NCBI RefSeq assembly: GCF_000317535.1
Contig: NC_019757.1
Span: forward strand, 2,558,501-2,622,500
Direction of reading: 5' to 3'
DNA from: Cylindrospermum stagnale PCC 7417
GTDB taxonomy: Bacteria > Cyanobacteriota > Cyanobacteriia > Cyanobacteriales > Nostocaceae
DNA length: 64,000 bases
This document shows, piece by piece, positions 3-64,000 of this stretch. The position numbers and the translations under genes were made by a program. The stretch's first letter is position 1; each line of letters starts with the position of its first letter. The notes under the pieces were generated by a model. The model ran no database searches. It worked only from the letters and a program-made list of their open reading frames with translations, and had not been told where the DNA came from.

Positions 3-1520
3 CGAAAACAGCAGATTTCTTGGTCTGATTATAAGGCGACAGTTGCTAACTATGGAGAATTAGTCAATTTACCTGTTGAAGGAAAAGCCTTTGTTGTTCA
101 TTTAAAAGAGTGGCTTTCTCAGGTAGCATCCCAGACAGATAAATCTTTTCCTAAAAATGAGTTTGTTCGCCTAGAAGATGGCAAACCAATTATTCAAAAA
201 ACTAACAAGAAGGTTAACCAGGAAAAAGTAAAATTGATTGAGTCTCTCATCAGAGAACGGCTGCACCCAGTTAACATACTGGATATTCTCACCGATACAG
301 AACTCTGGTTAAACTGGACTCGTTTCTTTCACCCAATTTCAGGATATGAAGCTAAAATCGACCATCCAATTGCTCGTTATCTAACTACCACTTTTTGTTA
401 TGGTTGTCATTTAGGAGCTTCTCAAACAGCCCGTTCTTTAGGAGCGTTTGACCATCGACAAGTGGCTTGGGTTAATCAGCGTCATATTACTGAAGAAACC
501 TTAGATAAAGCGATTACTTCAATTATTAACGCTTATAATCGGTTTTCTCTGCCTAAATTTTGGGGAACTGGAAAACGAGCTTCAGCCGATGGGACAAAGT
601 GGGATATTTATGAGCAGAATCTTTTAGCAGAATACCACATTAGGTATGGTGGTTATGGAGGCATTGGTTATTATCATGTTTCTGATACTTATATTGCCTT
701 ATTTAGTCATTTTATTCCTTGTGGTGTATGGGAAGCCGTTTATATTCTTGATGGTTTGTTAAATAATCAATCAGAAATTCAACCTGACGTTATTCATGCT
801 GATACTCAAGGTCAAAGTGCGCCTGTATTTGGGTTGGCTTATTTGTTGGGAATCAATTTAATGCCTCGCATTCGCAACTGGCATGATTTAAAGTTGTATC
901 GTCCTACTAAGGAGTCTCGTTACCACCATATTGATGGTCTCTTTTCTGATGTAGTCGATTGGGATTTGATTGAGACTCATTTGCCAGATATGTTACGGGT
1001 TGTTCTTTCAATTAAAGCGGGAAAATTTACCGCCTCAACCATTTTACGTAAGTTAGGAACTTATAGCAGACATAATCGACTCTATCAGTCATTCTCTGAG
1101 CTAGGGCTAGTGATTCGCACAGGATTTTTGTTGTCATATTTATCTGATGAAAAGTTACGCCTTACCATCCAAGCTGCATTAAATAAGAGTGAATCTTTTA
1201 ATGGTTTTACCAAATGGGTCAGTTTCGGTGGATCAGGTTTAATTCCTAGTAATAATCGAGATGAACAACGCAAGATGATTAAGTATAACCATTTGGTTTC
1301 AAATTGCTTAATTTTCTATAATGTCTTTGAAATGACGAGGATTTTGCAGGAATTAATTGCTGAAGGGTATGCCATTGATGAGGAGATTATGGGGGCGTTA
1401 AGTCCATATCTGACTAAACATATCAACCGATTTGGACGCTATAGCCTGGATTTAAATCGCAAACCCCCAGATGTTGATTATGATCTGTCTCTAATTCCCA
1501 TGGATGTAGATAATTCTTGA
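3..1520 (+). CDS. tnpA: Tn3-family transposase, C-terminal half (5' end beyond the window)
   Basis: The frame is open from the first bases of the window, giving about 505 residues, roughly the second half of a typical 950-1000-residue Tn3 transposase. It carries the DDE catalytic region: Asp in ASADGTKWD, Asp in HADTQGQ and Glu in NRDEQRKMIKYN, plus family blocks such as VFGLAYLLG, LMPRIRNWHDL and LYQSFSELG. It would catalyse replicative transposition by cutting the transposon ends. No internal stop or frameshift is seen, so the visible part looks functional. A TTG at 234 could be mistaken for a start, but the matching family sequence continues upstream of it. The gene ends 66 bp before the putative terminal repeat. 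Confidence 0.93.
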   Translation, partial: RKQQISWSDYKATVANYGELVNLPVEGKAFVVHLKEWLSQVASQTDKSFPKNEFVRLEDGKPIIQKTNKKVNQEKVKLIESLIRERLHPVNILDILTDTELWLNWTRFFHPISGYEAKIDHPIARYLTTTFCYGCHLGASQTARSLGAFDHRQVAWVNQRHITEETLDKAITSIINAYNRFSLPKFWGTGKRASADGTKWDIYEQNLLAEYHIRYGGYGGIGYYHVSDTYIALFSHFIPCGVWEAVYILDGLLNNQSEIQPDVIHADTQGQSAPVFGLAYLLGINLMPRIRNWHDLKLYRPTKESRYHHIDGLFSDVVDWDLIETHLPDMLRVVLSIKAGKFTASTILRKLGTYSRHNRLYQSFSELGLVIRTGFLLSYLSDEKLRLTIQAALNKSESFNGFTKWVSFGGSGLIPSNNRDEQRKMIKYNHLVSNCLIFYNVFEMTRILQELIAEGYAIDEEIMGALSPYLTKHINRFGRYSLDLNRKPPDVDYDLSLIPMDVDNS

Positions 1521-1554
1521 GATAGGCATAAGTGAGGAAAGAGTTATGGTATCG

Positions 1555-1962
1555 CTAAAACTCTCTCTGGGCAAGCGTTTCATGCGATATGGCGGAATTT
1601 TTCATGAATCGTTGCAATACCCCATCTTCAGTTGATTGATTTGTATTTTTTGCCCAAGCCCATAAACTAGCTGCTTTAAGCATTGCTTCTGTGTTTATGG
1701 GTAAATACATTAGTCCTTGTTTTCCTAAACTATCTAGCCTTTGTAATTTCTCAAGTCTAGTAGTTTCTTTTATTGGATCTTTATTGACACAAAGCAATTT
1801 CCGCCTAGACTCATAGTCTGCTATTTCTGGTACTACAACTGCAATATTATTAGCTACTAACTTTTTTACCCAACTTATGCAATCTAGTACTTGTGAGCTT
1901 TTTGGTCTTTCCACTAGGATAGATAAAATATTGGTATCTAATACAACTATTGCTGAGTTCAT
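1555..1962 (-). pseudogene. PIN-domain (VapC-like) ribonuclease gene, 3' end cut off by the Tn3 element
   Basis: The 135-codon frame starts with a PIN-domain N terminus (VVLDTNIL, Asp9) and an acidic EIADYE block near residue 45, features of VapC-type metal-dependent ribonucleases. The expected C-terminal part, with the last acidic metal ligands after the conserved STED region, is missing. About 113 codons are native (1624-1962); the last 22 (from GVLQRF) are read from the transposon terminal repeat, and the stop is inside the transposon. The protein is therefore probably inactive. The gene starts 14 bp after the stop of the 258-codon gene upstream, so the two were likely cotranscribed. Confidence 0.75.
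1586..1623. repeat. Putative right terminal inverted repeat of the Tn3-family element
   Basis: Read inward on the minus strand it begins GGGGTATTGCAACGATTC, the GGGG start usual for Tn3-family 38-bp ends. The conserved protein sequence of the interrupted PIN gene stops exactly here. The partner repeat is off the window, so the length of 38 bp is assumed from the family. Confidence 0.6.
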
Positions 1963-1976
1963 TTAATTTTGATTAA

Positions 1977-2753
1977 TTAATCTTCACCTAGCGAATGTAT
2001 TCTTTGTTTACTTTCTTTTAATAATTTTTCATAAGGATGTTCTCCTATTATTAAATCCCATGATTTATTTTCTGTAAATGTATTAGTATTTTTATCTTTA
2101 TCTAGTTCCCACAAAATTGCTTTGCAAGTGCTGTTTATTCTCTTAGCAATTGAAATATATCTCTCTGTATTCTTTTCTCTTGATTTGATGAACTTGTCTG
2201 AAAATTTTATTAGTTCAGAGACAAATGCATTAATAGATTCTAATTCTTTAAACGTTATTACGCTATAACATTTTTCTACTGCTACGAGTAGGTTTTCTGT
2301 AGCTTTTGAATATTTATCTAAAATCTTTTTTAACTCTAAATTTTGGGGATTTTCATTTGCTAGTTTAGAAACATCCTTTACTATTAATACGACTGTTATA
2401 ATTTTTTCTCCATATTCATGGAGAATTTCTAACTCTAGAGTATCCTGGAGGAGTTTATCATTGGTTATAAACTCACTATATTTAATTCTGAATTTATTTA
2501 ATTTTTGACTTAATTCACCATTTAATTTACTGATTGATTTCAAGCTTCTAGTTTTGCTTAATTTATTATATAGCTTATGTATTTCATCAAAATCTTGGTC
2601 TAATTCTTCTTTTTTAGCTGAGAGAAATATTTGTCCTTCATTGGTTTGAAAACTTTTCTCTAATTGAATCTTAATTTCATTAAAGTCTTCTTCGCTTGTG
2701 ATTTTATTTTCGGTAAATGCTTCTAAATTAATATTTTCAAACACTGAGTACAT
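1977..2753 (-). CDS. Uncharacterised helical protein, upstream partner of the PIN gene
   Basis: I do not recognise this 258-residue protein. It is Lys/Glu/Leu/Ile rich, has no obvious signal peptide or membrane segment, and looks almost entirely alpha-helical with coiled-coil-like stretches (for example residues 30-100). The start is placed at the ATG preceded by GGGAGGT seven bases upstream; a longer frame begins six codons earlier without a ribosome site. Its codons are much more AT rich than those of the housekeeping genes, which suggests accessory DNA. The 14-bp spacing to the PIN gene suggests one transcript, so a role tied to that nuclease (antitoxin or regulator) is possible, but nothing in the sequence proves it. 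Confidence 0.7.
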   Translation of the reverse strand: MYSVFENINLEAFTENKITSEEDFNEIKIQLEKSFQTNEGQIFLSAKKEELDQDFDEIHKLYNKLSKTRSLKSISKLNGELSQKLNKFRIKYSEFITNDKLLQDTLELEILHEYGEKIITVVLIVKDVSKLANENPQNLELKKILDKYSKATENLLVAVEKCYSVITFKELESINAFVSELIKFSDKFIKSREKNTERYISIAKRINSTCKAILWELDKDKNTNTFTENKSWDLIIGEHPYEKLLKESKQRIHSLGED

Positions 2754-2964
2754 ATTTACCTCCCTACTCACATATTTTTCCGGCTTGGCAGAATTAATAT
2801 ATGTTAATTCTGAGTACCTTATACTCCGTGAACATAACTAAACAGGGTACTTTTCAATTTATAGAGTTGTTCCCAAAAAAAGGTTAATTTTTGGCCAAGT
2901 GATAAACTTTATATTCTAATAATACTGTAAAGTCTGCCTTTGAAGCCCAGTGTCCAAGCAAACC

Positions 2965-3732
2965 CTAATCTAAATCAGGTTCAACGCCAAGCGATCGCAA
3001 TTGTGCAATTAATCTTTCTACCCGCCGTTGTTCCTGTTCTGTCCGTTGTCTTTCCTCTTCAGCCCGTTGTCTTTCCTCTTCGGCAGGTGTCAACACCCAG
3101 TTACCTGTGCCATCGTACCAACGTAACCAAGGCTGCTCAATATCTTGATAATTTCCCTGCCACACACCCAAGCCTAATTGTAATTCTGGTATCCAGAAGC
3201 GGGAATCTGACAGTGCCACCTCAGCATAATGCCCGCCATCTAACTTAAACATCCTAAACTCATACTTGTAGCGGTCAAAAACAGCGTAATAGGGAATCCG
3301 CAAAATCTGCTCATACACTTCCCATTTTCCTGGTGGTTGCTCAACATCTCGCAATGCTTGCCCTAAGTCTTCCCTTTCAGTACCGGGAGATAGCAATTCA
3401 ACCACAATATAAGGATTAACTCCCTCTTGCCAAACCACATAGCTTAAGCGTAAGTCCCGTTGTTCGTAGAGTCGGGGAACACCCAAAACAGCAAACCAAT
3501 CCGGGCGTTTATACCAGAGTGGATGATGCAAGTCATAATAAAGATTCAAATCACTGGCAACAAAAATGCGATCGCTAGGATAATTCGGCAGACGAAAGGT
3601 TTCATCCAAGAGACGCGGTTGCAACAAATGAAATTGATCAGGCAAACCAGGCTCCTCTGGATCTTCACTCTTGAGATCATACATGGTCGGGAATAGGTCT
3701 TTTGGGGAACGTGGCGGGTCAGTTTGATGCAT
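2965..3732 (-). CDS. Uma2-family (DUF820) putative endonuclease with charged C-terminal tail
   Basis: The 255-residue protein has the Uma2 layout: a VASDLNLYYD block, the Pro-Asp pair in YKRPDWFAV, the Glu in NPYIVVELLSPGTE and the tyrosine-rich IPYYAVFDRYKYE strand, which together make the PD-(D/E)XK nuclease-like fold. Residues about 215-250 form a Glu/Arg/Gln heptad-like helix (AEEERQRAEEERQR), common in cyanobacterial members. Such genes occur in many copies in filamentous cyanobacteria; their substrates are largely unknown. It stands alone, with about 200 bp before the neighbour at 2753. Two more Uma2 genes are in this window (41980 and 54427). Confidence 0.85.
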   Translation of the reverse strand: MHQTDPPRSPKDLFPTMYDLKSEDPEEPGLPDQFHLLQPRLLDETFRLPNYPSDRIFVASDLNLYYDLHHPLWYKRPDWFAVLGVPRLYEQRDLRLSYVVWQEGVNPYIVVELLSPGTEREDLGQALRDVEQPPGKWEVYEQILRIPYYAVFDRYKYEFRMFKLDGGHYAEVALSDSRFWIPELQLGLGVWQGNYQDIEQPWLRWYDGTGNWVLTPAEEERQRAEEERQRTEQEQRRVERLIAQLRSLGVEPDLD

Positions 3733-4341
3733 CTTGAAGCCGTCCTGACGATCAGACTCTCAGTTATATTATGGAGGGTAGATTTGTTTGCTGAATCCAA
3801 AAATCCTAAAAATCAGGTCGCTTGAGGCTAGAGTGAGATAATCTATATCTGTAGGTAGATGTGAACTCTACTTCCGAGCATTTATTTTTTATGTATGGAT
3901 AGTGTCCTAGTAAGCGAAATAATCACCTAGGGCTGTGCTAAAAGACGTAAACCCATAAAATTGCCGAATACACGCTTCAGCAATTTGTATAGCGCGTAAC
4001 ATATAAATTGGGCTGATGGGTGCGACACATGATGGTGTTGTCCCTCGGTGGTGTAGGCACTGCAACCCTTAACAGTAGTTTAAATAGTAGAATTTTTTTA
4101 ATTGATAGAAAGCTCCTAGTGGCGATCGCACTCCTGGCTGGAGAGGCGATCGCTCCTTTATTTCCATAGCACTTGACATTAATGGACAGTTTAGCCAAAA
4201 AGTTCTACAATTTGACTAATTGGAGTAAAATTACCTATTGTCCAATCCACCTAAGCATAGTAAAGATTTTCTAGTGATTCTGCCCGAATACAGAATCACT
4301 CAATTAATATAAAAAAGTCTTTAGTCAAGGACAGCAAAAAA
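3733..4341. other. Gene-free stretch
   Basis: Intergenic sequence between the divergent Uma2 gene and the small plus-strand gene. It holds two HIP1 octamers (near 4122 and 4146) and AT-rich stretches. A 73-codon minus-strand frame (3977-4198) runs through the HIP1 sites, lacks a ribosome site and resembles no family I know, so it is not called. Confidence 0.6.
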
Positions 4342-4464
4342 ATGGAAGTAAAGCTGATTTTAGCCGGATTAACAGTTATATTTACGCTTTCGTGCTTGTT
4401 TTTTGGCACGAAAAATGGCTTTTATGACTCAGATGACTATCATGGCAACGGTTCTGCACATTGA
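4342..4464 (+). CDS. 40-residue single-span membrane protein
   Basis: A 40-codon frame starts at ATG with AAGGA eleven bases upstream. Residues 3-22 are hydrophobic (VKLILAGLTVIFTLSCLFFG) and look like one membrane helix; the rest is a short polar tail rich in Asp, Gly and His (YDSDDYHGNGSAH). The clean layout of helix then polar tail, with a plausible ribosome site, supports a real gene. Small one-helix proteins of this type are common in cyanobacterial photosynthetic complexes, but no specific partner can be named. It lies on the same strand as the metallo-hydrolase gene 277 bp downstream. Confidence 0.55.
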   Translation: MEVKLILAGLTVIFTLSCLFFGTKNGFYDSDDYHGNGSAH

Positions 4465-4740
4465 GAAAAGTCTGTAGACGCGACTGCTGCTAACAACTTT
4501 CAGCACATCGGCTGATTAAATCCAGAAAACTTCCTTAGCCAATAGTTTGTGGGCTGCCGATTACGCAAATTTTCTGAACTAACTTGGTTTAACGATCGGT
4601 ATCCTCCCCAATCAAAAAACCGCATTCTCAGGGTGTAGGGGCGGATGATCAAACTTACCCCTAGGTCACAAAACCAAAATCCCTATAACTTTTGGCTTTT
4701 GGGATATATCCATGAATAAGAGGTATGAGGGGAGGAGAGC

Positions 4741-6396
4741 ATGAGGGATAGTGTGTCGTCATTCTCTCGCTCTGATGCTGGGGAAGCAGCTAGTGAATTA
4801 GAGTGCTTGCCCTATAGTGTACAGCATCAGGATGAGGGTGTATGTTTATTAGTGCGGATGGGACCACACCGCATCCTGCTAGACTGTGGTGTGGGAGATA
4901 TTTCAATGCTTGGGAAGGAACTAACGCAATCAACAAGCCTACCAGCAGATTTAGTCTTAATCAGTCATGCCCACCCAGATCATGCGAGAGGATCGCTGGC
5001 ACTACACAAAGCTTTTCCCCTATTGCCGATCTATGCCAGCGAAGTAACTAGCAAATTATTGCCGCTGAATTGGTTAGACAATGATCCCGAAGAAATTCCG
5101 TCATTTTGTCAGGCGCTACCGTTGCGATCGCCTGTAGAATTACAAGACGGTCTAGTGGTGGAATTATTTCCCGCAGGGCATTTACCGGGGGCTGTAGCCA
5201 TTCTGCTCACCTACACCACCCCAGAACGCGCTTACAAACTACTGTATACAGGGGATTTTTTCTTATCGAACTCCCGGCTGGTAGAAGGTTTGCGCTTAGA
5301 GGAATTGCGGGGATTAGAGTTGGATGTGCTGATTATTGAAGGTACTTATGGCACATCCCGTCATCCCCACCGCCGCAATCAAGAAAATCAATTAGCCGAG
5401 CGAATTAATCGGGCAATCGCCGACCATTGTTCTGTACTTATGCCCACACCCGCTTTAGGGCTAGGTCAAGAACTGCTAATGTTGTTACGCTCTCATCATC
5501 ACTTCACGGGACGGGATTTAGATATTTGGGTTGATGGTGCTGTCGCCATTGGGTGCGATGCTTATCTAGAACTGCTAACCCATCTCCCCCCTTCAGTACA
5601 GAACTTCGCCCGCCATCAACCTTTATTTTGGGATGAACGGGTACGCCCTCGCGTGCGGCGTCTACAGCCAGAATATCGGACTACAGTGGGCAAATCCCCC
5701 TGTATTATCCTTACCGACTCTACAAATGATTTGGGCAAATACTGCCAACCGGAAACAGGCCCTTGGCTGATCCTGCTCCCAGAAAAAATTGATATTAAAG
5801 TTAACAAAGAATATTTAGCACCTACCACCATTGAAAGCTATCTTCTCGCCCAGCATAGTGATGGACCGGGTACAACGCAGCTAATTCATAACTTACGACC
5901 CCAGCACGTCGTTTTTGTCCACGGCTTTGCCGCCTACTTAGCAGACCTGACCGGCTTGGAAGAGTTACAAAATCGTTACCACGTACATTCTCCAGCAGCG
6001 GGGATTTTAGTAGAACTGCCGATTGGCGACACATTTTTACAACCAGCAGCCCCAGAGGCTAACTATGAAGGTGAACTGACAGAGTTAGGAACAGTAATCA
6101 CAATTACTATCCCGGAAGCAATAACGGCAGATTCCCGTTGGCGGGAATTTGCCGATACAGGTTTAATTGAAGCCCGTTGGCAAGGACAAGAATTAGTATT
6201 GCGGGGGTTATCGCCAAGAGAACTGCTTAACCAAAATAGCGATCGCTATACATTGTCTGATGTAGATTGCTGCGGTACTTGCAGATACCAAAGAGGGCAG
6301 CGGTGTTGGAACCCCGCATCCCCCTTATATAACTTCAAAGTCACCCTTGAAGGTTACTGTCCTGCCTTTGAAGGCTTATCTAGTCCTGATTCTTGA
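4741..6396 (+). CDS. Metallo-beta-lactamase/beta-CASP-like hydrolase with C-terminal Cys cluster
   Basis: The 551-residue protein has the metallo-beta-lactamase signature HAHPDH at residues 76-81, a further metal-ligand His in AGHLPGA, the bridging Asp in YTGDFF, then IEGTYGTSRHP and a C-terminal HGFAAYL. The order resembles beta-CASP enzymes that process RNA (the CPSF73/RNase J group), so an RNase role is likely but not proven. Residues about 505-545 contain five cysteines (DCCGTCRYQRGQRCW, then YCPAFE), which could bind zinc or an Fe-S cluster and are not part of the catalytic fold. The start is supported by GGGGAGGAG directly upstream. Followed at 6397-6430 by heptad repeats. Confidence 0.8.
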   Translation: MRDSVSSFSRSDAGEAASELECLPYSVQHQDEGVCLLVRMGPHRILLDCGVGDISMLGKELTQSTSLPADLVLISHAHPDHARGSLALHKAFPLLPIYASEVTSKLLPLNWLDNDPEEIPSFCQALPLRSPVELQDGLVVELFPAGHLPGAVAILLTYTTPERAYKLLYTGDFFLSNSRLVEGLRLEELRGLELDVLIIEGTYGTSRHPHRRNQENQLAERINRAIADHCSVLMPTPALGLGQELLMLLRSHHHFTGRDLDIWVDGAVAIGCDAYLELLTHLPPSVQNFARHQPLFWDERVRPRVRRLQPEYRTTVGKSPCIILTDSTNDLGKYCQPETGPWLILLPEKIDIKVNKEYLAPTTIESYLLAQHSDGPGTTQLIHNLRPQHVVFVHGFAAYLADLTGLEELQNRYHVHSPAAGILVELPIGDTFLQPAAPEANYEGELTELGTVITITIPEAITADSRWREFADTGLIEARWQGQELVLRGLSPRELLNQNSDRYTLSDVDCCGTCRYQRGQRCWNPASPLYNFKVTLEGYCPAFEGLSSPDS

Positions 6397-57914: not shown

Positions 57915-58574
57915 TTATTCATCAATACAATTGGGAATACCCAAGACAGCGCAGGGGAAATTAGCACCTAATGTCTCAATCATCGGATGAGTAACAGATT
58001 TACAGCCCATAAACAGGATATCGGCAGCTTCTGATTCAACAACTTTTTTAAGTTCTGTACTAATACAGCCAAACCGCAAATGAGACTGGAAACCACCCTG
58101 CCATTCTTCAGCTAGAGTTCGTGCTTGCCAGAGAATTCTATCAGCTTGTTTGATGGGAGTTAAAGATTCTCGTTGTAGATGCGTGGCAATTGCCGTTAGT
58201 TTTGGTTGAGTTAGAACCTGTGTGACCGACTTTGAGATATCGCTAACCGGACACTCTAATGGCAATTGATTTTTGTCAAAGCTGAAGATATCTAAATACT
58301 GATTGCTAGGATTTTCTTCTACTACATAAACGGCTTGAACTGTGACCTGAGCGTTGGTAGCTAAACGCGTTTGATGAGCAATCCAAAAAGCGATATCTAG
58401 GGCTGTGTGACTGTTGGGTGAAGCATCGTAGGCAACAATTAAGTTGACTGATTTTGCTTTCGAGGTTCTTTTAGAAAAAGGTTTTTTTGGCTCAGGCAGC
58501 AATACCATTTGTTCAATTAAGTCATCTCGACCTATGGCACTTTGCAAGCGCGCTAACATTGGCTTAATTTTCAC
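57915..58574 (-). CDS. Universal stress protein (UspA fold)
   Basis: 219 residues from a GTG with AGAGAGAAG about ten bases upstream. After an N-terminal extension of about 40 residues comes the Usp domain: VNLIVAYDASPNSHTALDIAFWIAH, ending with ADILFMGCKSVTHPMIETL and CAVLGIP. The ATP-binding G-x2-G-x9-G(S/T) signature is incomplete (MGCKSVTHPMIETLGANFPC), so nucleotide binding is uncertain. It is the last gene of the putative transporter operon and is preceded by its own ydaO-type riboswitch (58736-58850). Confidence 0.85.
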   Translation of the reverse strand: MKIKPMLARLQSAIGRDDLIEQMVLLPEPKKPFSKRTSKAKSVNLIVAYDASPNSHTALDIAFWIAHQTRLATNAQVTVQAVYVVEENPSNQYLDIFSFDKNQLPLECPVSDISKSVTQVLTQPKLTAIATHLQRESLTPIKQADRILWQARTLAEEWQGGFQSHLRFGCISTELKKVVESEAADILFMGCKSVTHPMIETLGANFPCAVLGIPNCIDE

Positions 58575-58681
58575 AGCTTTAACTTCTCTCTATGAAATGA
58601 ATAACGAACGAGAAGCAGGCCAACCAATTATAGATTTTGGATTAAACGAAATAAACCGTAATCTAAAATCTCAAATTGATT

Positions 58682-58733
58682 AAGGAAACCCCAATAAAAA
58701 CTGATATTACAGCCACTATTTTGGGGGTTCCTT
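58682..58733 (-). promoter_or_regulatory. Long hairpin between the second riboswitch and the stress-protein gene
   Basis: On the minus strand AAGGAACCCCCAA pairs with TTGGGGTTTCCTT (12 of 13 positions), three bases after the riboswitch core ends. There is no U run behind it, so it may form part of the expression platform or stabilise the mRNA end rather than terminate. Confidence 0.45.
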
Positions 58734-58735
58734 CC

Positions 58736-58850
58736 ATTGCCGACGGAGTTAGCTGACGGGCTAAGACTGGAAGGTGTCTCTCATTAAGATTAGCCCCATA
58801 TTTTGGTTCCTCCGCTTCAAATTTAGATTTGATAAATTTGAATTAGGCTA
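58736..58850 (-). ncRNA. ydaO/yuaA-type (c-di-AMP) riboswitch before the universal stress protein gene
   Basis: On the minus strand the order is GCCTAA, a perfect 10-bp AT-rich hairpin (TTCAAATTTA/TAAATTTGAA), GCGGAGGAACC, TGGGGCTAATC and the long conserved tail AGCCCGTCAGCTAACTCCG ending in GGC. The same core elements occur in the leader at 62456-62630. These blocks (GGAACC, GGGG-ATC, CCGTCAGCTAAC-TCG) are those of RF00379. It begins only about 25 nt downstream of the ATPase stop codon, so it is probably inside the operon transcript. Ligand is inferred from the family. Confidence 0.78.
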
Positions 58851-58874
58851 CCCACTTAAAAATGATAATCCATT

Positions 58875-59711
58875 TTACTCATCTTGAGTAAAATATCGGT
58901 CAAGAAAATTCAAGGCGTGGTTGCGAAGGTCAAAATATTCTTTTGTGTTTCGCATGGCACTACGATCGCGTGGACGCTCAAAGGGAACTTCTAAAATTTC
59001 TCCTATGTTAGCAGCTGGCCCATTGGTCATCAAAACGATGCGGTCAGACATATAAATTGCTTCGTCTACATCGTGAGTAATCATCATCACAGCTTGGCGA
59101 TGATTTTCCCAGATATCCAATACCTGCCGCTGCAATTTAGAGCGAGTTAGTGCATCCAGTGCCCCGAAAGGTTCATCCATCAATAACATTTTTGGACGAA
59201 TTGCCAAGGCTCTAGCAATACCCACCCGTTGTTTCATACCTCCAGAAATTTCATCGGGATACTTATCGGCTGCCGCTGTTAAGTTTACCATTGCCAAGTG
59301 TTCATTTACAAGGCTAATTTTTTCGGCACGACTAGCCTTTTTTATCACTTCATCTACAGCTAACCGGATATTTTCTCGCACAGTTAACCAAGGTAGCAGC
59401 GAATAATTCTGAAATACCATCATCCTCTCTGCACCTGGCTTGCGGATTTCTTTTCCATCTAGCCTTACTGAGCCAGAAGTAGCTTTTTCAAAACCGCCAA
59501 TAATCTTAAGTAGTGTTGATTTGCCACAGCCAGAGTGACCAATGACAGAAATATACTCATCTTCATTAATTGTAAGATTCACACCATTGAGAACGACAAA
59601 ATCATCTTTGTCTGGTGTCGGATATGACTTGATCAAATCTTCAATTTCTAAAAATCCATTACGGGTCATAACTTCTTGATAAGTATCTTCTGGAAATGAG
59701 GTATATTTCAT
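58875..59711 (-). CDS. ABC transporter ATP-binding subunit, NrtD/CmpD/TauB-like
   Basis: 278 residues from the ATG at 59711, with GGAGAA before it; a TTG two codons earlier is possible. Motifs: Walker A GHSGCGKST, Q-loop MVFQNYSLLPWLT, signature SGGMKQRVGIARAL, Walker B MLLMDEPFGALD and H-loop MITHDVDEA. The sequence is of the type that pairs with NrtA/CmpA binding proteins and TauC-like permeases. It energises uptake of a small anion or related solute. It is followed at once by the second riboswitch. Confidence 0.94.
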   Translation of the reverse strand: MKYTSFPEDTYQEVMTRNGFLEIEDLIKSYPTPDKDDFVVLNGVNLTINEDEYISVIGHSGCGKSTLLKIIGGFEKATSGSVRLDGKEIRKPGAERMMVFQNYSLLPWLTVRENIRLAVDEVIKKASRAEKISLVNEHLAMVNLTAAADKYPDEISGGMKQRVGIARALAIRPKMLLMDEPFGALDALTRSKLQRQVLDIWENHRQAVMMITHDVDEAIYMSDRIVLMTNGPAANIGEILEVPFERPRDRSAMRNTKEYFDLRNHALNFLDRYFTQDE

Positions 59712-59763
59712 GATCAAATTCTCCGGAAAAATTTAGTTATTAGTCACTATTGGCACTTGATAC

Positions 59764-61206
59764 TTAAGACATGAATAAGCGAGTGGGCGCGTTAGCCCTG
59801 ATGGTAAAACTATTGAGATATCCCACTGGATCACTGGGGTCAAAGCCTTTGTTATCGATGAATACTTCTGGAGGTTCGACTTTATAATCATTCTTGGGAC
59901 ACTCAATTCCCATTTCAGCGGCTATTTCCCGATATAAATCTGTTCTCCAGCCTTTTTCAGCTACTTCATTGGCATTTTTGGGAACAGTCTTGATCTGTCC
60001 CCAGCGAGCTGCTTGAGTCATCAGCCAGATACTTCTGGATCTCCATAAAAATGTTGAGTGTTCTCCTGGCTCTTGGGCGACGTTGCTAGGTATATCAAAG
60101 AAAATTGTCGTGTCAGCAGCTTTGATAGTGCGGTCTTTGCCATCAAACCCACCATAGTTGTAATTACCAAGAATTCCGGGAGCGGTAAACTTGGTGATGG
60201 GGTCGCCTGGATTTTTGGGTTTTGCACCGGTAAAGGAGCGGCCTGTAATCAGTTCGGCTACTTCTTGGCGGTTTTCCGGTTTGCTGCAATACTGGCAAGC
60301 TTCAATCATCGCCTTGACTAGGGAACGATAGGTTTTGGGATAGTTGTCGATGAAAGATTCCATCACCGCTAGCAGTCGATCTGGGTGTCCTGCCCAGACT
60401 TCTTTTCCTTGGGCAAAGGTGAAACCAATACCTTCATTACCTGTAATTGCTCTGGTGTTCCAAGGTTCCGCCACCATGTAAGCCTGCATCGCGTCGATTC
60501 TCATGTTGGTGAGCATTTGCGGTGGGGAAACGATAATCACCCGAAATTCCTTCAGGGGATCGACACCAGCGGCGGCGGCTACGTAGCGGACAAAGTATTC
60601 GTAAATGGCAGAACTCAGCACTACTGCCCAGATTTTTCTTTCTGGGGGCTGCTTGTCAAAGTAGTTCCGGAAATCGCGCCCAAAGGCTTCCAGCGCTCCA
60701 TCACCATACTTTTGTTGGTATTCGTACCAGGGGCGTATCCCAAAATTCCACATATCTTTGTTCATCGTCATGGCGTTACCGTGGCGGTGAATTACCATAG
60801 CTGCACAAAGGGGGGCACGGCGTGCGCCTTCAGCACCAACTCTGGCATTGGTGACGGCACCGGATACTACAGGTGCAGCATCCAGACGACCAAAAATCAG
60901 CCCGTCGCGGGAGGTAGCCCAACTGGCTTCCCGATTGAGTTGGACGTTTAAACCGTATTTGCGGAAAAAACCTTTTTTCCAGGCGATCGCAAATGGCGCA
61001 CAATCATTAACAGGCACATAACCAACGCTAATGTTGGGTTTTTCTAAGTCTTGGGGTCTGACTACTGGTTCCACAGCTAAGGCTTGTTCAGTTAGTCCTT
61101 TAACAGATTTATCTCCTGATATTCCACAAGAGGATAGGGATATTCCCGCTGTTGTTGCTCCTATTGCCTGAATAAAGTCCCGTCGAGTCCAATTATTTTC
61201 ACTCAT
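59764..61206 (-). CDS. ABC transporter substrate-binding protein, NrtA/CmpA family, Tat-exported
   Basis: 480 residues from the ATG at 61206. The N terminus is a twin-arginine signal (NNWTRRDFIQAIGATTAGISL) followed by a lipobox-like LSSCG. The mature part follows NrtA/CmpA: NISVGYVPVNDCAPFAIAWKKGFF, WATSRDGLIFGRLDAAPVVSG, AAMVIHRHGNAMTMNKDMW, MVAEPWNTRAI and the long C-terminal half. Nitrate, bicarbonate and related anions are the known ligands in the family. I cannot assign the ligand; the region GKEVWAGHPDR differs from the nitrate type as I remember it. The 286-bp gap to the permease gene holds direct repeats (CTCCTTTAAAAG). Confidence 0.9.
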   Translation of the reverse strand: MSENNWTRRDFIQAIGATTAGISLSSCGISGDKSVKGLTEQALAVEPVVRPQDLEKPNISVGYVPVNDCAPFAIAWKKGFFRKYGLNVQLNREASWATSRDGLIFGRLDAAPVVSGAVTNARVGAEGARRAPLCAAMVIHRHGNAMTMNKDMWNFGIRPWYEYQQKYGDGALEAFGRDFRNYFDKQPPERKIWAVVLSSAIYEYFVRYVAAAAGVDPLKEFRVIIVSPPQMLTNMRIDAMQAYMVAEPWNTRAITGNEGIGFTFAQGKEVWAGHPDRLLAVMESFIDNYPKTYRSLVKAMIEACQYCSKPENRQEVAELITGRSFTGAKPKNPGDPITKFTAPGILGNYNYGGFDGKDRTIKAADTTIFFDIPSNVAQEPGEHSTFLWRSRSIWLMTQAARWGQIKTVPKNANEVAEKGWRTDLYREIAAEMGIECPKNDYKVEPPEVFIDNKGFDPSDPVGYLNSFTIRANAPTRLFMS

Positions 61207-61221
61207 GGTTATAGCTATCAA

Positions 61222-61492
61222 TTATTTATAAATAGGCTCGCGCCCAATACGGTTCAGATAAGATACCCCACGGGTTGACCCCCTTTTAAAGGAGCTAATG
61301 GAATCAAATATTTCCCCTTTTCAATGAGGTAATGAAACAATTTAGCCCCCTGCTTTTAAAGGAGAGTCAGTTGAAGAGCGTATTTTCCTAAGGTAGCCGC
61401 TTACTCATGTGACCAAAGTTGTGCGGACTGCCGAGAGAGTTGTACGAGCTGGCGTGGGTTGGAAGAATCATCTTGGCATCAGACAAATTTTG
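61222..61492. other. Intercistronic gap in the transporter operon
   Basis: 271 bp with two copies of CTCCTTTAAAAG followed by GGGG (near 61293 and 61359) in direct order. No promoter or terminator is clear, so the operon may be continuous across it. Confidence 0.4.
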
Positions 61493-62344
61493 TTATTTAG
61501 AAGTTTTCGGACGGTGGGTGACTAACTCTTCAATTTTCCCCACAGCAAAATCCAGAATTAACCCAGTTACGCCAATTACCAACACAGCGAGAAAGACTGA
61601 ACTAAGATTTAAACGGCTCCATTCATCCCAGACAAAAAAGCCGATTCCAACACCGCCGGTGAGCATTTCTACGGCGACAATTACCAACCAAGCAATTCCT
61701 AAACTAATTCGCAAACCTGTAAAAATATATGGCAAACTCGCTGGCCAAATAATTTTAGTAATCCGCCGCCAACTGGGCATTTCTAACACCCGTGCCACAT
61801 CTAAATAATCTTGAGAAACGCTAGAAACTCCCAAAGCAGTATTAATAATTGTCGGCCAAAGGGAGGTAATGAAGATGACAAAAATAGCTGAAGGGTCTGC
61901 TAAATTGAAAATGGCTAAAGATATCGGCAACCAAGCTAGGGGCGATACGGGTTTAAAAATCTGAATGATCGGATTGAAAGCTAGCATTGCTTGTCTAGAC
62001 ATACCAATGCAGAATCCCAGGGGAATAGCAACTACTGCACCCAACAGAAACCCCACTAATACCCGCCGCAAACTTGCTATTAATAACCAACCAATTCCCA
62101 AGTCTCCCGGGCCTCGTTCGTAAAACGGGTTTAAAATGTAGTCCAGATTAGCAATTAGAGCTTCTGGTGGAGTGGGCATTACATCGTGATTGGCAAGTGC
62201 TACCACCCACCACAACAAAATTATTCCCAAAAATCCTAAGACAGGAAATAAGAAGACATCCCGAAAAATCACAGGTTTTGCCTTTTTCCATGCAAATTGT
62301 CCAGCAACCGCCACGATTGCAGCTAAATTAAGTTGAAATACCAT
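61493..62344 (-). CDS. ABC transporter permease, NrtB/CmpB/TauC-like
   Basis: 283 residues with six hydrophobic segments: residues about 7-20, 30-52, 105-130, 140-175, 210-235 and 245-275. The binding-protein-dependent transport signature is in DVARVLEMPSWRRITKIIWPASLPYIFTGLRISLGIAW, with the EAA loop. First gene of the operon permease, binding protein, ATPase, stress protein. The ATG has GAGG seven bases upstream and is preceded by a leader of about 290 nt holding the riboswitch. Confidence 0.93.
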   Translation of the reverse strand: MVFQLNLAAIVAVAGQFAWKKAKPVIFRDVFLFPVLGFLGIILLWWVVALANHDVMPTPPEALIANLDYILNPFYERGPGDLGIGWLLIASLRRVLVGFLLGAVVAIPLGFCIGMSRQAMLAFNPIIQIFKPVSPLAWLPISLAIFNLADPSAIFVIFITSLWPTIINTALGVSSVSQDYLDVARVLEMPSWRRITKIIWPASLPYIFTGLRISLGIAWLVIVAVEMLTGGVGIGFFVWDEWSRLNLSSVFLAVLVIGVTGLILDFAVGKIEELVTHRPKTSK

Positions 62345-62375
62345 TTACAACCTCAACAGATCAAAGCGCGGGTAC

Positions 62376-62432
62376 AAAAAAAACCGAACAGTACGGGCGT
62401 TGGACACTGATGAGATCGGAATATTAAAAAAA
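62376..62432 (-). terminator. Candidate expression-platform terminators of the transporter leader
   Basis: Two U runs follow the aptamer on the minus strand: seven U at 62432-62426 right after a possible GACGG pairing with the CCGTC of the aptamer tail, and eight U at 62383-62376 right after a hairpin with CCGA/TCGG and CAGT/ACTG stems (62384-62419). Both lie before the permease ribosome site, as expected of a transcription-terminating switch. Confidence 0.5.
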
Positions 62433-62455
62433 TACCGTCTCTTCAGTCTCCCCTC

Positions 62456-62630
62456 AATGCTTACGAAGTTAGCTGACGGGCTAGGGCTGAGAGATGCCCC
62501 TCTCTTGAGAGTGGTGAGTCAAATATTTCCTAACTACTCAATTTTGACTCTTAACTTGCCACTTTCTAGGAGATACGCCCCACAATTGGGTTCCTCCGCT
62601 CCAGTGCTACGCAATGCACTGGATTAAGCT
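62456..62630 (-). ncRNA. ydaO/yuaA-type (c-di-AMP) riboswitch before the transporter operon
   Basis: On the minus strand: AGCTTAATCC, a perfect hairpin TCCAGTGC/GCACTGGA, GGAGCGGAGGAACCC, GTGGGGCGTATCTCC, a variable middle, and the tail CCCTAGCCCGTCAGCTAAC then TTCGTAAGC. GCTTA at the start pairs with TAAGC at the end to close the RNA. The blocks fit the ydaO family, which senses cyclic di-AMP. The second copy at 58736 keeps the same blocks while its stems carry different, compensating bases. About 110 nt separate it from the permease start, holding two U runs. Confidence 0.83.
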
Positions 62631-63070: not shown

Positions 63071-64000
63071 ATGGATTTTAGTCAACTACTGGCTGAAAAA
63101 ATTGATACTATTCTAGATAAATGGGTGGTAGCAGTTCGCAAAGATCGGCGAATTGAAAGCGCTGATGACCTATCCTACGGCGCGATTAAAGATCACATTC
63201 CCAATGTGTTGGAAGCGATGGTAACAGTACTTTCAAAAACTCAGGGTAATGATATTCAGTCGATAGTAACTGCCAGTTGGCAACATGGGGCTATTCGAGC
63301 TATACAAGGCTTTGATCCAGAAGAAATTGCTAGGGAATATCATCAGTTGCGAATAGTAATATTTGATGCAATAGAAGCGGATTTATTGCAGGGAACACCA
63401 ACTGAGATCATTCGTGCTTTTAGATTGATTAATGTTGTGATCGATGAAGCGATCGCTAGGTGTTTTAATAGTTATGTTAAAGAACGTTTAAGAGAATTAG
63501 AGCATCTGCATTCCTCACTGACGCTGCACAATGAGGAACTAACTCGCTTAATTAACGCTAATCGAGAGCATCTTTCCCACCTAGCCCACGATTTGAAACA
63601 TCCTCTATCTTCAATTATTGGTTACTCAGATTTGTTTTTACGGGAACAACGTAAAAAAATTGAGGGAAAAGAAACCTATGCCAATGTAGAACATATTGAG
63701 CGTGTACTACGCAATGGTAGACACTTACTCCGTCTGATCAATGATTTACTAGAAATATCACGGTTTGATACAGGGAAGATCAAACTCGAACTAGCACCCA
63801 CAGATGTATGTGAATTAATAAATAATGTCTATCAAATGTTGGAGCCTTTAGCTGCTGGGAAAAGTTTACAAATTGTGGTGGATTCTGTCCAACCTCCCAA
63901 ACCGTTTATCACAGATTCTTTTCAATTACAACAAGTTGTGACAAATCTTGTGAGTAATGCGATTCGCTATACAGAGTCGGGGACTATTAATATAGTATTT
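63071..64000 (+). CDS. Sensor histidine kinase with RsbRD-like N-terminal domain (3' end beyond the window)
   Basis: The frame is open from ATG 63071 to the window end (310 residues seen). Residues about 1-140 resemble the RsbRD N-terminal sensor-type domain (LLAEKIDTILDKWVVAVRKD; VLEAMVTVL). A coiled segment (RELEHLHSSLTLHNEEL) leads to the dimerisation/phosphoacceptor box HLSHLAHDLKHPLSSIIGYSD, where the His of AHDLKHPL is the phosphorylated residue, then the N box QQVVTNLVSNAIRYTESG. The rest of the ATPase domain is off the window. There is no membrane helix, so the protein is likely cytosolic. The signal and response regulator are unknown. Confidence 0.9.
   Translation, partial: MDFSQLLAEKIDTILDKWVVAVRKDRRIESADDLSYGAIKDHIPNVLEAMVTVLSKTQGNDIQSIVTASWQHGAIRAIQGFDPEEIAREYHQLRIVIFDAIEADLLQGTPTEIIRAFRLINVVIDEAIARCFNSYVKERLRELEHLHSSLTLHNEELTRLINANREHLSHLAHDLKHPLSSIIGYSDLFLREQRKKIEGKETYANVEHIERVLRNGRHLLRLINDLLEISRFDTGKIKLELAPTDVCELINNVYQMLEPLAAGKSLQIVVDSVQPPKPFITDSFQLQQVVTNLVSNAIRYTESGTINIVF

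Follow-up and report, generated by a model that had tools for sequence, protein, structure and literature searches.

Introduction

Riboswitches of the ydaO/yuaA class (RF00379), whose ligand is cyclic di-adenosine monophosphate (c-di-AMP), were reportedly described by Nelson et al. in 2013, and the supplement to that work may include some of the gene contexts treated below. In characterised c-di-AMP riboswitches high c-di-AMP lowers expression, and in the solved structures the last loop forms a pseudoknot with the 3' tail. Here we analyse two leaders of this class, RS1 and RS2, on the minus strand of a 64,000-nucleotide stretch of the cyanobacterium Cylindrospermum stagnale PCC 7417 (NC_019757.1, positions 2,558,501 to 2,622,500; hereafter "the window", in whose own numbering coordinates are given). 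The two leaders frame the genes of an ATP-binding cassette (ABC) transporter, the order of transcription being RS1, permease, substrate-binding protein, ATPase, RS2 and a universal stress protein (USP).

The riboswitch class is already known, a cyanobacterial case included: the c-di-AMP riboswitch of Synechocystis slr0753 likewise lies ahead of a transport gene, but that gene encodes a putative chloride exporter, and the available parts of the article mention neither a USP nor a second switch (PMC10117731). The c-di-AMP riboswitch of Bacillus thuringiensis kdpFABC also heads a transporter operon, in that case for a potassium pump and in a different phylum (PMC6488665). USPs have been tied to c-di-AMP through the USP domain of KdpD, a c-di-AMP receptor; there, however, the ligand is bound by the protein, and the binding motif given in the available text, (A/G/C)XSXSX2N(Y/F), is absent from 8/8 USPs here, the window's and seven aligned relatives (PMC8214093). 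Cyanobacterial c-di-AMP riboswitches have been tied to osmoprotectant genes (PMC5986932 and PMC4284465, as far as their accessible text goes, both citing Nelson et al. 2013), and a review states that not many c-di-AMP effectors have been identified in cyanobacteria (PMC10117731).

The closest published parallel to a pair of switches is a set of 77 tandem c-di-AMP riboswitch doublets, which likewise place two switches of the same class in one gene cluster (PMC9481103, from the portions available). Members of those doublets share a single leader, whereas RS1 and RS2 have three genes (~3.6 kb) between them and are not a same-leader tandem. In the accessible parts of the open-licence literature we found neither an account of two switches set three genes apart nor one of this USP as a target, and the available text of PMC3766115, PMC5897029 and PMC5386190 held nothing on this locus. 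A preliminary description of this DNA had stated that no account of two copies in a single unit of this make-up was known; this stands for the spaced arrangement within that literature, but neighbouring RF00379 copies recur across the order and the 77 doublets are published.

We consider it about 70% probable that the locus comprises two neighbouring c-di-AMP-controlled units, RS1-transporter and RS2-USP, of which the second would have a promoter of its own, with ligand binding and effects on expression predicted from sequence.

Results

RS1 and RS2 belong to the c-di-AMP riboswitch class and differ in their pseudoknots

Scoring with the RF00379 covariance model, a check proposed in the preliminary description, placed both segments well above the Rfam gathering score of 38 bits (68.3 for RS1 and 56.8 for RS2), and each aligned to model positions 1-134. 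The ydaO/yuaA assignment that had been made for the two minus-strand leaders is borne out by these scores; their core blocks lie at the positions originally given, and the variable hairpins pair as had been claimed, over 8 base pairs in RS1 (TCCAGTGC/GCACTGGA) and 10 base pairs in RS2 (TTCAAATTTA/TAAATTTGAA). The conserved RS2 leader begins in relatives at ~58855 (GTGGGTAGCCTAAT), upstream of the model's 5' end at 58844, and GCC at 58848-58846 could pair with GGC at 58741-58739. This upstream part would complete the closing stem by providing its 5' strand, so that RS2 is possibly scored too low. The peripheral loop of RS1 measures 61 nucleotides versus 6 in the RF00379 consensus; by eye, the peripheral loops of some aptamers, in the window at ~62501-62571 and in L106, L111 and L177, hold insertions, tens of bases long, that resemble small dispersed repeats.

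The pseudoknot provides further covariation between RS1 and RS2, absent from the list in the preliminary description. Each switch has its own pair of predicted pseudoknot strands, with different letters (Table 1). Allowing G-U pairs, the longest contiguous match between the strands was 5-9 pairs in 133/133 distinct RS1 leaders, a set in which a few leaders are cut at the wrong place and which also underlies the RS1 pattern counts below, and 6-9 pairs in 94/94 distinct RS2 leaders. With loops and tails swapped between the two types (400 draws each), the mean number of pairs was 3.9 and 5.3, down from 7.8 and 7.0, respectively, for strands of the same type. Both RNAs fit the class model, while their pseudoknot letters and downstream tails set them apart from each other. 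Automatic consensus folds of the leaders were weak, and the RS1 fold was not used. Judged by their sequences, both leaders are ydaO/yuaA-class riboswitches, with c-di-AMP as the ligand by class membership, and the evidence for both is stronger than first stated.

One diadenylate cyclase domain in the genome scores above the Pfam cut-off (129.1 bits; a second match is weak and below it), and therefore the ligand can be made in this genome. RF00379 matches the C. stagnale genome three times in total. The third copy (G000:C2:1716953-1717168, locus L193; 58 bits) has an RS1-like tail by eye and is followed by a glycosyltransferase-like gene, which fell below every NCBIfam cut-off among the matches listed, and further on by a phosphoribosyltransferase-like gene.

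The two-switch arrangement is conserved in the family

Under strict filters, at least 178 of 291 genomes from the order, and at least 89 of 99 from the family, had an RF00379 match above the cut-off. In relatives the switches were located by a core-block pattern, so divergent copies can be missed, and the named and numbered genomes overlap, so that their sets are not additive. Among 69 named loci, found through relatives of this USP, all six elements were present in 58, a count that includes some loci with fragmentary genes (e.g. L197, L209 and L227); RS2 was recognised by pattern in 68 of the 69, and L226, which escaped a stricter pattern, has an RS2 with one changed core base. Starting from the transporter, we compared 80 numbered loci, 21 in the family and 59 in other families. 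RS1 lies ahead of the permease in 19/21 family loci and 51/59 other-family loci (3/59 are too short to tell), and RS2 lies between ATPase and USP in 10/21 and 6/59, respectively. A further 23 of the 59 other-family loci have RS1 and a nearby USP without RS2. By eye, L123 has a decayed RS2 copy and L118, L136 and L143 have short 5' remnants, which suggests that RS2 has been lost there rather than gained late elsewhere. The two-switch arrangement is real and conserved in the family.

Additional RF00379-like copies were also noticed. L128, L130, L132, L142, L143, L146, L148 and L151, from several other families, each have one with the orientation of RS1, located ~1.8-2.1 kb before it. In L168 (G086, 854-6063) the permease is preceded by three copies within ~5.2 kb, of which two are only ~540 bp apart and possibly a true tandem, and divergently oriented copies lie within ~0.7 kb of each other in L241 (1413-2278), G311:C225 and G298:C33.

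RS2-USP is separable from the transporter in relatives

In a genus of the same family (g4), RS2-USP stands apart from the transporter in 9/9 genomes, and the leaders match those of the named Dolichospermum/Anabaena loci L247-L251 at 88-100% identity. The transporter locus is present in 8/9 of these genomes and retains RS1 at 6/8, and within the stretch examined no USP follows it at any of the 8 loci. Likewise, 6 of the 69 named loci have RS2-USP without transporter genes in the upstream flank examined. In one locus (L240) a histidine kinase related to the divergent one of the window (68% identity over 308 residues) is found ~0.4 kb away from the RS2 core, without any transporter gene in between; because this kinase adjoins RS2-USP, the transporter appears to be absent from its usual site.

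Other loci have a USP behind either switch type or with a broken transporter. L273, from another family, has RS1 and an intact USP, and between them a broken remnant of the ATPase (E 7e-30) and at most a scrap of permease (E 0.014); no binding-protein remnant was found there. USP relatives (49% and 42% identity) lie directly behind an RS1-type switch in L274 and an RS2-type switch in L275, with types assigned by eye. Taken together, genus g4, L240, L273, L274, L275 and the loci lacking RS2 suggest that each switch serves the gene or genes behind it, and that the USP would be a lasting member of the c-di-AMP regulon.

A candidate promoter precedes RS2

Just behind the ATPase stop the window has a candidate -10 box (Table 1), whose position would put the RNA start at the 5' end of RS2. 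Of 84 leaders, 71 have the motif TA[TC]NAT immediately after the ATPase stop, compared to a mean of 20.8 and a maximum of 30 in 200 shuffles, and among 41 distinct stretches 32 carry it. For this count 10 of the 94 leaders had been dropped, their 5' motif being unmatched, and the 84 kept include a few standalone leaders. There is no evident -35 box before RS2, and standalone RS2-USP copies have, by eye, a TTGACT...TAATA-like promoter. We infer an internal promoter for RS2-USP.

Predicted output steps of the two switches

The 3' strand of the RS2 pseudoknot can also enter a downstream hairpin (Table 1), and the stretch containing it, 58740-58640, folds at -25.1 kcal/mol (z -2.56 versus shuffles). 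In predicted folds at least four of the first eight bases of this strand pair downstream in 94/94 leaders compared to 150/188 shuffles, with mean numbers of pairs of 6.29 and 4.89, respectively. Because this strand pairs downstream, the ligand-bound aptamer and the hairpin would exclude each other. In the hairpin alignment 795 of 840 cells (94.6%) are paired, compared to a mean of 94.0% and a maximum of 94.4% in shuffles; covariation in this platform is thin because its sequences are nearly invariant. No U-run follows the hairpin in the window.

A second possible hairpin covers the Shine-Dalgarno sequence of the USP gene. Across relatives 560 of 568 alignment cells are paired, and 6 cells changed on both sides, versus a mean of 0.7 and a maximum of 3 in shuffles. 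At least six contiguous pairs at the Shine-Dalgarno sequence were found in 55/94 leaders with RS2 and 2/26 without, a crude measure that depends on motif length (five-letter motifs cannot reach six) and makes the contrast only rough.

Two further candidates downstream of RS2 were rejected. The letters had suggested that the anti-Shine-Dalgarno strand of the USP might pair with the pseudoknot strand of RS2, but the predicted probability of this pairing averaged 0.01 (84/94 leaders). A small peptide gene whose reading frame, uninterrupted in the window, would begin with the pseudoknot strand of RS2 (ATGGAAGGAACC...) is crossed in close relatives by one-base insertions and deletions (by eye, e.g. 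L097, L107 and L185), which argue for RNA structure instead of a small peptide gene. In many relatives AT-rich, repeat-like hairpins lie, by eye, between the RS2 hairpin and the USP.

The tail of RS1 runs up to the permease start codon at 62344 and includes a long hairpin and a U8 run (Table 1). The longest U-run within the GUAC..GUACC stretch behind RS1, which 93/133 leaders have, ranges from 2 to 8. In the window itself CCGA/UCGG and CAGU/ACUG could form a terminator ahead of the U8 run. This candidate was rejected, as it is poorly kept in relatives: all four outer pairs occur in 21 of the 65 leaders (of 133) that match the pattern.

Genes at the locus

The permease and the ATPase both score above curated nitrate-type models (TIGR01183 and TIGR01184). 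The proposal of an NrtA/CmpA-like transporter with a stress protein behind it agrees with our assignments at the level of the superfamily (PF13379; PDB relatives NrtA and CmpA) and of the USP (PF00582). Among PDB sequences the binding protein matches NrtC/CmpC chains best, being closer to their C-terminal domains than to NrtA or CmpA, which follow with similar scores. With NrtA and CmpA at roughly the same distance, these matches single out no substrate, and the link to carbon supply raised in the preliminary description is conjectural. The USP matched no NCBIfam model and, at E values up to 1, no PDB sequence. The FG-type ATP-binding motif G-X2-G-X9-G(S/T), as given in the available text of PMC8214093, is absent from 8/8 aligned USPs, the window's included; in the motif region of the latter G190 is retained and S193 replaces the second G. 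A divergent gene upstream of the locus (63071-64000, plus strand) encodes a histidine kinase with RsbRD_N and HisKA domains.

Table 1. Features of the two-switch locus, in window coordinates
Feature	Position	Strand	Evidence or description
RS1, RF00379 c-di-AMP riboswitch aptamer	62640-62443	-	covariance model 68.3 bits, E 9.9e-14
RS1 pseudoknot (predicted)	62494-62487 (UCUCUCAG) with 62457-62450 (UUGAGGGG)	-	pairing, G-U allowed
RS1 tail	62470-62345	-	3' aptamer end, long hairpin, U8 run; -37.1 kcal/mol, z -2.54
ABC transporter permease, NrtB-type	62344-61493	-	TIGR01183 235.7 bits (cut-off 209.05); PF00528
Substrate-binding protein, NMT1_2 family, NrtA/CmpA superfamily	61206-59764	-	PF13379 E 3.2e-61
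ABC transporter ATPase, NrtC/D-type	59711-58875	-	TIGR01184 369 bits (cut-off 291.8)
Candidate -10 box TATCAT for RS2-USP	58867-58862	-	TA[TC]NAT motif just behind ATPase stop
RS2, RF00379 c-di-AMP riboswitch aptamer	58844-58726	-	covariance model 56.8 bits, E 1.6e-10
RS2 pseudoknot (predicted)	58774-58768 (CCUUCCA) with 58736-58730 (UGGAAGG)	-	pairing, G-U allowed
RS2 downstream hairpin (predicted)	58733-58682	-	AAGGAA..CCCC / GGGGUUUCCUU; re-uses pseudoknot 3' strand
Possible hairpin over USP Shine-Dalgarno	58616-58582	-	GCUUCUC 58616-58610 with GAGAAGU 58588-58582
Universal stress protein, 219 aa, GTG start	58574-57915	-	PF00582 35.6 bits (cut-off 24)

Discussion

The preliminary description had treated the locus as a single operon. 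If so, all transcripts would start at RS1, and RS2 would sample c-di-AMP a second time, so that the response of the USP would be steeper or lower than that of the transporter. The gene order, kept in 58/69 named loci, and the presence of both switches in one cluster stand; the RS2 core block begins 65 nucleotides behind the last ATPase codon (63-69 nucleotides in 23 of the 29 loci of the family type that have RS2), and no terminator was called between ATPase and RS2 core. However, RS2 is preceded by a -10-like box, and together with the USP it travels without the transporter, standing apart in every g4 genome and in 6 of the named loci. Because of the box and this separability, two adjacent units are the better reading of the locus, and a single operon strikes us as improbable, though the most serious of the alternatives; two linked units are also more likely than a novel operon logic.

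It is very unlikely that RS2 is a functionless relic of a duplicated RS1. Such a relic would agree with the absence of RS2 from the 23 other-family loci that retain RS1 and a nearby USP, and with the decayed copy and short remnants in L123, L118, L136 and L143, but in the family RS2 retains its core and pseudoknot, its downstream hairpin hardly varies, and its signature and tail differ from those of RS1. We give equally little credence to one or both RNAs being variant aptamers for another ligand: Rfam scores cannot prove a ligand, yet the core blocks of both fit the RF00379 consensus, the genome has a diadenylate cyclase domain, and the Synechocystis member is reported, in the text available, as a c-di-AMP switch (PMC10117731).

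Under the two-unit reading RS1 would control the permease/binding-protein/ATPase unit, and RS2 would serve as the USP leader, most probably with additional transcription from a promoter that lies immediately after the ATPase stop and belongs to this unit. c-di-AMP could then set USP levels independently of the transporter, and read-through from upstream would meet RS2 as a second checkpoint. Ligand binding is predicted to lock the pseudoknot of each aptamer, in RS2 at the expense of the hairpin that shares its strand. By analogy with characterised members, high c-di-AMP would lower expression (OFF). The output of RS1 may be premature termination at the U8 run, whereas RS2 would act by a route that needs no standard terminator, perhaps through translation of the USP.

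Several of our results weigh against parts of this picture. Swapped pseudoknot strands still formed 8-9 pairs in 33/400 draws (RS2 loop with RS1 tail) and 7-8 pairs in 18/400 (RS1 loop with RS2 tail), and the core-block pattern did not find RS1 in 2 of the 8 g4 transporter loci. The leaders in the -10 box count are related, falling into 41 distinct stretches, which inflates such counts, and a scan with the sigma-70 consensus reported no promoter before RS2 (7 in total, versus a shuffle mean of 10.3). In the RS2 downstream hairpin, two-sided changes amount to 3 cells, inside the shuffle range (maximum 5). The Shine-Dalgarno hairpin of the window, folded as a fragment, is no more stable than shuffled sequence (z -0.14), and in the full leader this hairpin has a probability of 0.01 in the free and 0.00 in the bound state. 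Two-state folding with the pseudoknot strands blocked predicted no change at the USP ribosome site (0.64 free versus 0.68 bound, as mean helix probability over 84/94 leaders; 8 were skipped by pattern and 2 exceeded the length). Downstream pairing of the RS1 pseudoknot strand is not above shuffles (mean 3.52 versus 3.88, 132 leaders), and no terminator-like site was called behind RS1 or RS2 in a scan limited to loops of 3-8.

More tentatively, and rather less probably than not in our estimation, the locus may represent an old c-di-AMP circuit of filamentous cyanobacteria in which one messenger sets both an uptake system and a USP. Its two switches, unlike in build and located in a single gene cluster, would include an inner one driven by a separate promoter. 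The stable core of this regulon could be the USP, because it occurs behind either switch type, is kept in L273 despite decay of the transporter, and has no transporter beside it in L240 and genus g4; as such it may report or buffer c-di-AMP. The RS2-USP unit is a clean candidate c-di-AMP target in heterocyst-forming genera, the NrtA-like transporter is a second, and species in which parts of the locus are split, rearranged or decayed offer natural tests of what each switch controls.

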